Assembly: GCA_944325075.1 (NCBI GenBank)
Contig: CALUYU010000022.1
Location: 1-35,353 of the forward strand
Origin: Candidatus Gastranaerophilales bacterium
GTDB taxonomy: Bacteria; Cyanobacteriota; Vampirovibrionia; Gastranaerophilales; Gastranaerophilaceae
DNA: 35,353 bases
Reading direction: 5' to 3'
This document shows, one piece after another, positions 6,089-30,015 of this stretch (within the stretch, counting starts at the first letter, position 1; every line of letters begins with the position of its first letter). The notes beneath the pieces were generated by a model. It saw nothing but the letters and a program-made list of their open reading frames with translations, was not told the DNA's origin and did not search any database. A program made the translations under genes and the position numbers.

Positions 6089-7878
6089 TATTGCTTCCGC
6101 TTACCTTTTAATTTAACTTTAAATACCCTGCCGTCAACGGTTTTGGCATTAACAACTTTTGCATCATATCCTTCCGGAGCAATTAGTTCTATTTCCAACA
6201 CTCCGCTATTTTCATTTGACTTATGCGGGCTTTCAATTTCGTAACGTTTATTCAGATACTTTTCAAAATCGATAACATTATCGTTTCTCGGACGCGACAT
6301 CTGTTCAAGAATTCTGACAGTCCTGTTATTGTTATAAACCTTTGTCGCTGCAGGAAGTTGAACAATTTCAGGCCCGCGTTCCCCAACAAGTGCCAGCCCG
6401 CCGGAAAAATAATTCGTTCCGGAAGCAAAGCCCGGAACCTTTTTATCATTTGAGTTTTTCCTCTTTTCCATAACATTTCGGGTAACATTTACAACAGCAC
6501 CGACAGGAGTAAACCTAAATGCGAGTTCCGCAGCCTCTTTAATCTTATTAAAAATAGGTTCAATCTTTTGCCATAAATCCATAATCCAGGATTTTGCCTT
6601 TTGTACAAAATCAAGGGTAGCCGCTTTTACTTTATCCCAATTTAATGCAAGCAATACAAGCCCTGCAACCACTGCACCGATTGCAACTGCCACCCAGGTC
6701 ATCGGATTCATCAATAATGCTGCAGTCTGTGCAGCTATGGCTGCAACACTTGCCCATATTGAAGTTGTTAATGTTCCAAATTTTATAGCAAGCCCTAACA
6801 CAGCCCACGCTAAATTATTAAAGTTTGCTATAATTGCGACTGTCGCAATTCCGCTAATTGCCGCAATAATTTTGTCGGAATTCGATTTAATAAAACCGGC
6901 AAATTGCTGAATTACATTATAAAGCCCCGCAAACATGTGATAACAATTTTTCAGAATATTATAAAAATCTTCAAACGATTTCTGGATAACAGGCATATTA
7001 TCAACAAGTAACTGGTTTGCTTTAGTTAATAATTTTGTATATTCAGGAAGTATCACCATTCCCCAGTTTGTCTGAATTTCTTTCAGCATTTCTGAGTGCA
7101 TACGCATCTGGTTTGCGGCATTGCCGCCTGTTCTTAAAAAATCACCCTGGGCATTTTTGGTTCTATCCATTACATACAAATATCGGAGTTCAACTTTTTC
7201 AGCCTCTTTCATATCTTTTATCTTTTTTCGTAATCCTTTGCTGCGTGCAAATTCTTCAAGGTTTGCTTGCGTCATTACAACACCAAGATTTTTCAAAGAC
7301 TCGGTTTCACCGGTATAAACAGATTTTAAAGCCGTTGTCGCAATATCATTAGAGATATTTTTAAACGATGCCATATCAGCCCCGAGTTGGGTTAAAGACA
7401 TTGCCATTTCAGCTGCACGTTTCTGCGACATCCCCATACCAGTTCCCATATCACCAAACAAAGCCGCACTATCTAATGCGGTCTGCTGGGCAAGCCCCAT
7501 ACTTTTAACTGAGGTTTTTGCCCATTCAGTAACCTGCTTGCTCATTGAACCAAATGCAACATCAATTTTACCGCGTGTTTCTGTCAAATCCGATGCCAGA
7601 TCTATCCAAGCTTTACCTAATGCTGCAATCTGTTGTACAACCTGCCCCGCAACCACAGCCATAATAGCATTTTTAACGGTAAATATTTTATCTGTAACAG
7701 AAGTAATACCGTTGCCTAAACTTTTAAACCCTGAACCAATAAAACGGAAGGCACGGTTAAAAGCACCCTGAATTCGTCCTGCCTGTTGCTGAAAGCTGTT
7801 TCCTTTTTCAATCATTGATTTAAAAGCAGGAGTAACCCCGTCAACAGCCTTGAACTTTGTAAATATAGAAAATGACAT
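6088..7878 (-). CDS. Tail tape measure protein
   Basis: The protein has 596 residues and sets tail length and is ejected during infection. Evidence is the phage tail tape-measure pattern in the first 250 residues (WAKTSVKSMGLAQQTALDSAALFGDMGTGMGMS.. region and DIATTALKSVYTGETESLKNLG), a hydrophobic segment at about 326-413 able to form membrane helices, and the C-terminal motif FASGTNYFSGGLALVGERGPEIVQLPA. It starts five bases after the stop of the frameshifted chaperone product. At about 600 residues the tail should be short for a myovirus. Confidence 0.93.
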   Translation of the reverse strand: MSFSIFTKFKAVDGVTPAFKSMIEKGNSFQQQAGRIQGAFNRAFRFIGSGFKSLGNGITSVTDKIFTVKNAIMAVVAGQVVQQIAALGKAWIDLASDLTETRGKIDVAFGSMSKQVTEWAKTSVKSMGLAQQTALDSAALFGDMGTGMGMSQKRAAEMAMSLTQLGADMASFKNISNDIATTALKSVYTGETESLKNLGVVMTQANLEEFARSKGLRKKIKDMKEAEKVELRYLYVMDRTKNAQGDFLRTGGNAANQMRMHSEMLKEIQTNWGMVILPEYTKLLTKANQLLVDNMPVIQKSFEDFYNILKNCYHMFAGLYNVIQQFAGFIKSNSDKIIAAISGIATVAIIANFNNLAWAVLGLAIKFGTLTTSIWASVAAIAAQTAALLMNPMTWVAVAIGAVVAGLVLLALNWDKVKAATLDFVQKAKSWIMDLWQKIEPIFNKIKEAAELAFRFTPVGAVVNVTRNVMEKRKNSNDKKVPGFASGTNYFSGGLALVGERGPEIVQLPAATKVYNNNRTVRILEQMSRPRNDNVIDFEKYLNKRYEIESPHKSNENSGVLEIELIAPEGYDAKVVNAKTVDGRVFKVKLKGKRKQ

Positions 7879-22867: not shown

Positions 22868-22988
22868 AAATCCGCGTCTTGGATTATTGCTTCACTCGGG
22901 CAAACCGCTCATTATACTTCGTAGTCATTCGCTGTTGCCCTCATTACTTCGAGTTTCGGACAAAGTCCTCACACTACGCAAAATCCGC
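22868..22988. repeat. Hairpin-rich repeat element, copy A
   Basis: About 121 bp bounded by direct AAATCCGC copies (22868-22875 and 22981-22988). Inside are AATCC-GCGTCTT-GGATT (22869-22885), GGGCAA...TTGCCC (22898-22940) and GGAC-AAA-GTCC (22958-22968). It shares the start AAATCCGC(T)GTCTTGGATT and the end CGCA(A)AATCCGC with copy B. It fills the gap between the replication gene and the 60-residue gene. Confidence 0.65.
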
Positions 22989-28856: not shown

Positions 28857-29009
28857 TTATTCCTCTATAATTTTCAATAAATTTTCAACCACAGTCTTTA
28901 CGGTATAGCTGTTTTCAATCTTTGGAATACCGCATGTAATATCGCATTTTATTGATTTAAGCCTGTATTTTATATCTTCAAGTTTTTCTTCAGCCCAATT
29001 ATCATTCAT
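28857..29009 (-). CDS. 50-residue small protein, unknown
   Basis: This short gene (MNDNWAEEKLEDIKYRLKSI, KCDITCGIPKIENSYTVKTV, VENLLKIIEE) begins in an ATGAATGA overlap with the upstream stop and ends one base before the clamp start. It uses the operon's normal start-stop coupling and fills the 146-base gap before dnaN. Helical and acidic, no motif. Confidence 0.6.
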   Translation of the reverse strand: MNDNWAEEKLEDIKYRLKSIKCDITCGIPKIENSYTVKTVVENLLKIIEE

Positions 29010-30015
29010 TTGAACACTCTTTTCTTAGTTCTTTAATTGCACAGGACAAAACCCAGCACGCTGTATCATAATCTTTAGCCAACGTATAAGATTGAAAATT
29101 AAATATATCAGTATTTTGGTTCTGCACAAGAGCATCACCGATTTCCGAACAGTATTTTTTATATTTTTTATCAATCAATTCACGTGCGGTTTTAAGGCAG
29201 CCAATTATTTTATCTGTTTGACAATCTTTAGGCGGTTCGGAATTTTTCGCAGCCATATCATGAGCAGACGACGGTATCTGACAAGTATCACGGTGTATAT
29301 CCTCAGCAACGAGATTTGACTTCCCTTCAATATCGTTTATCTGTCCAAGTTCAAATCCGCTGTCTTGGATTTGCTCCACGCGAACAGAGTTTCGCATTTG
29401 CGGCTTTACCGCAGTATGCTCAATCTTCCTCTCACAAACGATACTCAATCGTTTGTTCGGCAGAGTGCTATCCGGACTCGTTTCACTTCGTCCGTCCGCA
29501 AATCCGCATTCATTAAACAGGTAACTGTATAGTGCAGTTTTCTTGATTCTATTGCCATACGGGATTAAATGTTTTGTTTTTTTATAAATATCAGTCATTG
29601 ATACAGATAGTGAAGCCTCTGTAAGCCCGCAATTTTCTGCAATTTTATTTGATGGAGTACCTTTTACAATTTCCGCAATAATTTTCTTTTGAGTTGTATT
29701 GAAAAGTTTTAATAACTCGGCTTGCTTTTCTTTGACGCTATTGCACTTGATTTTATGTTCCTCATCAAGTCCGCACTCTGTACTTTTCGTATTTATTGTT
29801 TCCACAAAAAACCTCTCTTTCTCTTTATTTTCGAGTATCTTTAAATACCTGTTTATATACTGCGAATCTTTTTTAAAATTAGCTTTTATACATTGCCAGT
29901 TTGCAAATTCTTCCGGTGTCATTCTTGTTGCGTCTGATATCCACGAAAGTATATAGCTGTAACCCCATCCGCTTGGAGAATAAATTTCATCATTGCCAAA
30001 TCCATCGATATTCAA
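29002..30015 (-). CDS. LuxR-like HTH regulator with an inserted repeat element
   Basis: The protein has 337 residues. Residues about 106-165 (NTTQKKIIAEIVKGTPSNKIAENCGLTEASLSVSMTDIYKKTKHL) are like the LuxR/GerE HTH. The C-terminal 100 residues are helical (TARELIDKKYKKYCSEIGDALV, DTACWVLSCAIKELRKECS). Between them, about residues 171-221 are encoded by repeat element B and look unlike the flanks. The start is TTG at 30015, ten bases after GAGG; no other start is near. A DNA-binding role is probable, target unknown. Confidence 0.65.
   Translation of the reverse strand: MNIDGFGNDEIYSPSGWGYSYILSWISDATRMTPEEFANWQCIKANFKKDSQYINRYLKILENKEKERFFVETINTKSTECGLDEEHKIKCNSVKEKQAELLKLFNTTQKKIIAEIVKGTPSNKIAENCGLTEASLSVSMTDIYKKTKHLIPYGNRIKKTALYSYLFNECGFADGRSETSPDSTLPNKRLSIVCERKIEHTAVKPQMRNSVRVEQIQDSGFELGQINDIEGKSNLVAEDIHRDTCQIPSSAHDMAAKNSEPPKDCQTDKIIGCLKTARELIDKKYKKYCSEIGDALVQNQNTDIFNFQSYTLAKDYDTACWVLSCAIKELRKECSNE
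29352..29507. repeat. Hairpin-rich repeat element, copy B, in frame in a coding gene
   Basis: It is bounded by CAAATCCGC direct copies (29352-29360 and 29499-29507), 147 bp apart (49 codons, so the frame is kept). Hairpins: CAAATCC/GGATTTG (29352-29373), GCGG/CCGC with GCA/TGC (29394-29419), ACAAACGAT/ATCGTTTGT (29434-29456), CGGAC/GTCCG (29473-29494). The first 20 bases and the last bases match copy A. Confidence 0.72.

Follow-up and report, generated by a model that had tools for sequence, protein, structure and literature searches.

A prophage regulator gene of a Candidatus Gastranaerophilales bacterium carries a hairpin-rich segment within its reading frame, which raises the question of where this segment came from and how a gene could take it up and stay open. 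The gene lies in the 35,353-nucleotide stretch analyzed here (the window, contig C22 of a 2.26-Mb draft genome), in a prophage with genes for a GpA-type terminase, a lambda-type portal, a sheath, a tape measure and a serine recombinase. Our comparisons indicate that the segment very probably belongs to a family of small, non-autonomous mobile repeats found in the Gastranaerophilales, and that it combines two elements (X and Y), which would move as a folded single strand; mobility is read here from the comparison of copies, not from observed copying.

The frame of the regulator ORF (29002–30015, minus strand) is unbroken across the element, and a weak GerE/LuxR-type HTH is found at residues 108–146 (PF00196, 19.8 bits, below the cut-off). 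Two copies of CAAATCCGC are located at 29352–29360 and 29499–29507, at a spacing of exactly 147 bp (49 codons), and AAATCCGC, for which 1.3 occurrences would be expected in the window, appears five times, a number reached by none of 100 shuffles. Regulator homologues were recovered from five related prophages (G454, G021, G249, G252, and G112), while a protein search of IMG/VR gave no relatives. Residues 173–221 are missing from all five; the linker that follows the HTH is poorly conserved and the alignment within it is approximate, the conserved YLFNxCGF end being clear. Since the homologues carry Cys-Gly-Phe codons at that end (TGCGGGTTT, TGTGGTTTT, or TGTGGATTT), the second GCGGATTTG (29352–29360) probably represents the gene's own pre-existing codons, and the inserted unit is the 147 bases that precede it in gene order, i.e., 29361–29507 (GCGGATTTGCGGACGG...AAATCCAAGACA). 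The CAAATCCGC repeats were also considered as a target-site duplication, which was rejected, as none is seen at other insertions and the homologues have Cys-Gly-Phe there. The insert has a higher GC content than the rest of the gene (0.50 vs. 0.34) and a higher GC3 (0.51 vs. 0.29), and is therefore compositionally foreign. The 49 added residues are probably a tolerated linker and not a functional domain. An earlier note on this DNA had proposed a hairpin-rich element at 29352–29507, with direct ends 147 bp apart and a coding content unlike the rest of the protein, inserted in frame in the regulator. The ends, the coding content and the in-frame insertion are borne out, although the limits had to be moved to 29361–29507 and the single element became two nested ones; neither outcome that the note had set as a refutation was obtained, as the homologues lack the segment and further copies exist.

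The insert is a composite of an X of ~105 bp (GCGGATTT...AAATCCAAGACA in the window) with the 39-bp hairpin Y nested inside it (Table 1). Across the family X measures 100–119 bp and has the form GCGGATTT[S]CGKACGG-hairpin-CCGGATAGCGARNANATTGAGC-hairpin-GCGAAACTNTNNGAGCGTGGAG[S]AAATCCAAGAC(A), while Y has the form ACTCTGCCG-hairpin-GAGAGG, with 39–45 bp in nearly all copies, 42 of which are listed in contexts other than the window insert. The same nesting as in the window recurs at L267 and L268, which come from two genomes of a different genus and adjoin tRNA-Gly genes. The nearer of the two is non-coding and shares 84% DNA identity over 148 bp with the window insert, and this recurrence argues that XY moves as a unit. 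Y is also found at other positions within X (L049, L096, and L182), X is nested within Y in one case (L102), and X is found within other palindromes as well.

Table 1. Positions in the window of the regulator gene, the parts of its insert and the related intergenic copy.
Feature	Position	Strand	Remarks
Host gene, prophage regulator-like ORF, 337 aa	29002..30015	-	TTG start; HTH and five prophage homologues
Inserted DNA, X with nested Y, 147 bp = 49 codons	29361..29507	-	R1 match; absent in homologues
GCGGATTTG after the insert, identical to the start of X	29352..29360	-	Homologues' Cys-Gly-Phe codons there
X, 5' part	29467..29507	-	GCGGATTTGC outer-stem strand, CGGACGG hairpin, GGATAGC; BLASTN module q14-54, helices 1-2
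Element Y, 39-bp hairpin ACTCTGCCG-AACAAACGATTGAGTATCGTTTGT-GAGAGG	29428..29466	-	Nested in X between GGATAGC and AGATTGAGC
X, 3' part	29363..29427	-	TTGAGC-hairpin-GCGAAAC...GCAAATCCAAGA; BLASTN module q95-160, helices 1, 3-5
Copy A, divergent intergenic member	22868..22988	-	R1 21.3 bits, E 4.2e-4

In the folding tests the insert was more stable than its dinucleotide shuffles as minus-strand RNA (z = -3.0), minus-strand DNA (z = -3.5) and plus-strand RNA (z = -3.25), no shuffle folding as well in any of the three. In the RNA model an outer GGATTTGC/GCAAATCC stem encloses several hairpins. At the level of the family, X is a conserved and covarying multibranch fold: its outer stem is GGATTT../..AAATCC, and its branches are a first hairpin and a long arm. 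In an alignment of 36 distinct X sequences, 95.9% of the cells of the 26-pair structure are paired. Double changes were counted in 126 cells, compared to 34.4±6.5 for shuffles, and covariation scored 0.340 compared to 0.106, a signal that is lost when the partners are slid by 1–3 columns. The long arm has conserved internal loops, GCGA/GAGC and TTGAGC/GCGAAAC, and these unpaired pieces could be modeled as tandem G-A pairs beside G-C pairs. Taken alone, the modeled fold is compatible with both a DNA and an RNA form. An identity with an Rfam family was tried and rejected, with no match in Rfam 15 at the gathering threshold or at E-values up to 1.

A covariance model built from the X alignment (R1) scored the window insert at 60.6 bits (E about 2e-15; 1.7e-15), and its scan of the window gave nothing significant beyond the insert and copy A. 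The latter, which the earlier note had pointed out as an intergenic relative with the same ends and other inner stems, is a real if distant member: it runs from GCGGATTT to AATCCAAGA, its inner stems differ, and it is followed by GCGGATTT. Four loci of the same genome (L001, L004, L006, and L008) likewise have the X ends with a different interior and weak R1 scores, and are also followed by GCGGATTT. X-like sequences with the interior GGTGTCAG...CTGACACC were observed in this genome (G000) at L001, L003, L004, L006, and L008, on contigs C1, C23, C74, C98, and C103; they lie near contig ends and in an 84-bp tandem, and assembly breaks and undercounting are therefore likely there.

The search for further copies gave many in host genomes. 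By BLASTN the element matched 12 of the 13 genomes of the genus, as the separate modules q14-54, q52-97, and q95-160, and R1 matches were obtained in 97 of 292 genomes of the phylum (21 of the 115 genera sampled), all of them in the window's own family (Gastranaerophilales) and many with at least 13 copies. The records recovered by a pattern scan of public genomes were mostly Candidatus Gastranaerophilales and Melainabacteria; pattern matches in Oscillospiraceae, Gemmatales, Thalassomonas, Pseudoruegeria, and a filamentous cyanobacterium had no R1 match and were discarded as chance. A genuine-looking X in a record titled Muribaculaceae (L123) has the same CTGAACTT context, which suggests a mis-binned contig or a transfer. 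Several genomes contain many near-identical X copies in a context specific to each genome, such as the TGTCATCCTGAACTT|GTTTCAGGATCT hairpin in G025 or CCCCTTGAGGGAGA|CAGGGTTAGGG in G295, and these could reflect recent X activity or the amplification of a composite repeat. L227–L237 of G025 have X within a TGTCATCCTGAACTTG/TTTCAGGATCT hairpin repeat, and the two may amplify there as one composite; we take this hairpin repeat to resemble one known in other bacteria. Among viral contigs, the only genuine X found besides that of the window prophage is L202 (IMG/VR, 6384–6494, 112.5 bits), inside a GCGGGTTT/AAACCCGC palindrome; L203 turned out to be a chance hit within a gene. With this single viral copy a phage-specific family was rejected, and we conclude that X belongs to the host and that phages pick copies up: of the two homes originally considered for the repeat, host or phage group, only the host is retained.

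It is evident from the target sites that X prefers the loops or centers of hairpins, notably the T-loop motif of tRNAs and the loops of other palindromic repeats. At 31 non-redundant sites the two flanks of X pair together better (mean -6.86 kcal/mol) than when permuted (-5.23±0.42 kcal/mol; 0/2000 permutations), with no signal at 30 bases out. The tRNA T-loop sequence TTC[GA](A) precedes X at 10 of the 31 strictly non-redundant sites, compared to a background of ~1%, and at 31 of 59 in a less strict set. Among the 40 copies with enough flank, 16 have an intact tRNA gene upstream on the same strand, at 73–300 bases (mostly 73–107), and one on the opposite strand, while random places gave 1.5%. 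At these tRNA-linked copies a repeat of the tRNA gene's 3' end lies past the terminator, with X in the T-loop of that repeat, an arrangement also seen at a tmRNA gene. Loci of this kind (L048, L055, L015, L016, L169, L185, L190, and L200) were observed downstream of tRNA-Lys, -Val, -Arg, -Asp, and tmRNA genes, with an inverted-looking arm and in some cases with the 3'-end repeats in tandem. A different pattern was found for Y, whose arrays are located upstream of tRNA-Ile, -Pro, and -Leu, within repeated units of promoter plus 5' half. L061, L062, L059, and L066 show such tandem units with periods of about 97–140 bp; after the units come a short copy of the 5' end that looks inverted and then the intact tRNA gene. 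The window site has no obvious hairpin loop and is instead a GCGGATTT motif, the sequence with which X itself begins, so that homology-guided joining is a real alternative there and fits as well.

The precision of insertion can be followed in a gene family of 67–70 codons, present in 141 of 288 genomes of the family and often in several copies per genome. In four loci (L045, L106, L152, and L167) it carries X antisense and in frame at the same or a nearby site; these may share ancestry and were not counted as independent events. X-free copies are spread across the Gastranaerophilales family, and when L167 is compared with X-free L290–L313, GTAGA(T/C)|TTTGC is broken by exactly 102 bases or 34 codons (TGTCTTGGATTT...AAATCCGC), in frame and with no target-site duplication. 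None was found at the tRNA T-loop sites either, within 1–2 nt, the 3' end of X varying by 1–2 nt. The clean pair of filled and empty sites shows that X inserts precisely and without duplication. Few of 59 X copies are in convincing genes, with open frames both sense and antisense, and most are intergenic or associated to tRNAs.

For the prophage, this would mean that the XY composite entered the regulator just before the ancestral TGCGGATTTG (Cys-Gly-Phe), landing in the unconserved linker past the HTH; as XY is 147 bp with no stop, it would have added 49 residues and the frame was kept. The folded single strand, either ssDNA or RNA, would be inserted into an unpaired loop by factors acting in trans. 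The nested copies show that X can carry Y, and Y can carry X. Neither of the two domains considered as machinery tracks copy number: Y1_Tnp (PF01797) was matched in 10/20 high-copy and 4/20 zero-copy genomes (p = 0.10), and RVT_1 in 7/20 of each. Both an RT and a Y1 transposase were for this reason rejected as required machinery, and neither lends support to the proposed transfer step. A longer, autonomous version of X was not found at the loci examined, which cover part of the genomes. Some of the near-identical copies could also have spread by homologous recombination or within a larger composite repeat.

How such a strand is moved can be explained in several ways. Tentatively, X and Y may be minimal mobile elements defined by structure, inserting into loops (tRNA T-loops, D/anticodon arms, hairpin repeats, and X and Y themselves) with no known transposase or RT, and using duplicated tRNA-gene ends as safe harbors across the family, from which genes and prophages are seeded. 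A REPIN- or MITE-like element mobilized in trans by a Y1 transposase (IS200/IS605, RAYT) would be excised and inserted as ssDNA with hairpin ends and no duplication, and both the lack of duplication and the strand-specific entry into hairpins fit single-strand transposition; Y1_Tnp is also somewhat commoner in high-copy genomes. We nevertheless regard it as unlikely, given that Y1_Tnp is unmatched (as scored on draft assemblies) in half of the high-copy genomes, including four with many near-identical X copies (G025, G056, G063, and G295), that the 5' flank of X is not a fixed tetranucleotide, and that the REP doublet architecture and tags (PMC3116915, PMC3733652) are not seen. An RNA intermediate seems to us doubtful to a similar degree: a folded RNA would enter loops in transcripts, for instance the T-loop of a tRNA, and the product would be copied into DNA by reverse transcription and then recombine into the genome. 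The T-loop copies in tRNA sense, with upstream tRNA genes 16 to 1 in favor of the same strand, would be expected from it, and G-A-like tandem internal loops by G-C pairs are typical of structured RNA; yet RVT_1 is equally rare in high- and zero-copy genomes, there are antisense copies in protein genes, and the strand bias may only mirror which strand carries the T-loop sequence.

The likeness to the protein-coding palindromic elements of Rickettsia (RPEs), put forward in the earlier note, held only in part. RPEs are palindromes of 100–150 bp often found in frame in genes (PMC3767692, PMC10969869), and X (100–119 bp) and XY (147 bp) resemble them in being palindromic, multicopy and in some cases in frame without breaking the gene. 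That our insert was selected for encoding a harmless peptide is, however, very improbable, as most X copies are non-coding and those compatible with an ORF are sense or antisense, so that no conserved peptide is kept, unlike RPE-1 to RPE-3; the frequent in-frame insertion with a conserved peptide that characterizes RPEs was not found among the X copies, and nothing was found outside the Gastranaerophilales family. The main niche beside tRNA genes and the mutual nesting of X and Y further separate them, together with host and sequence, the latter judged from description. Least credible of all is a regulator linker, GC-rich and hairpin-prone, that was duplicated or expanded naturally with no mobility. 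The linker does differ in length between homologues, but the insert fits the family model (E = 1.7e-15), and nearly all of it is found again as non-coding DNA beside a tRNA-Gly gene of another genus (84% DNA identity); these family matches refute it.

The small mobile repeat proposed here also has to be placed among other known systems. Like REPINs and REPs, X is a non-autonomous hairpin repeat found in tandem arrays and entering existing palindromes; REPINs need RAYTs (PMC3116915), whereas a Y1 transposase is missing in 10/20 of the high-copy genomes, and in place of two inverted REPs with a GTAG/CGTC tag X has one asymmetric multibranch fold with the ends GCGGATTT/AAATCCAAGA. As in MITEs (PMC10969869), X is short, non-autonomous and dispersed, with nearly inverted ends (GGATTT/AAATCC) that pair over 8 bp, although the clean site has no duplication, the loci examined gave no cognate transposon, and the conserved interior of X is strand-asymmetric. 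Mobile elements that insert into palindromes are also known among ISs (PMC1525189). Mobile hairpins with no known machinery are described in mitochondria, as double-hairpin or repetitive hairpin-forming elements (PMC2800124, PMC4478555); they are organellar and, by their description, unlike X in sequence and architecture. In the open-access literature on repeats of Gastranaerophilales and Melainabacteria, to which the search was confined, no description of the X family was found. The nearest in spirit are the SDRs of Nostoc, which Elhai et al. reportedly described in 2008 as tiny structured mobile repeats of the cyanobacterial phylum, 21–27 nt long, with SDR4-6 folding, nesting in themselves and showing compensatory changes, and with no known machinery. 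At 100–119 nt, and with its multibranch fold, X would be larger. Overall, we regard X and Y as small palindromic mobile repeats, probably new, that resemble RPEs, SDRs and REPINs in the way they work, fall outside the named families tested and are set apart from SDRs and RPEs by description.

The way in which the smallest bacterial repeats move, whether RPEs, SDRs or many palindromes, is an old open question. The X family offers for its study much that is mostly missing in those cases: hundreds of copies in many species with strong covariation and precise filled and empty pairs, nested copies from which a relative order can be read, genomes in which the family expanded recently, and a marked preference for certain targets, hairpin loops and the tRNA T-loop. 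The prophage examined here gives an example in which a small mobile repeat of this kind has lengthened a phage regulator by 49 residues with the frame kept.
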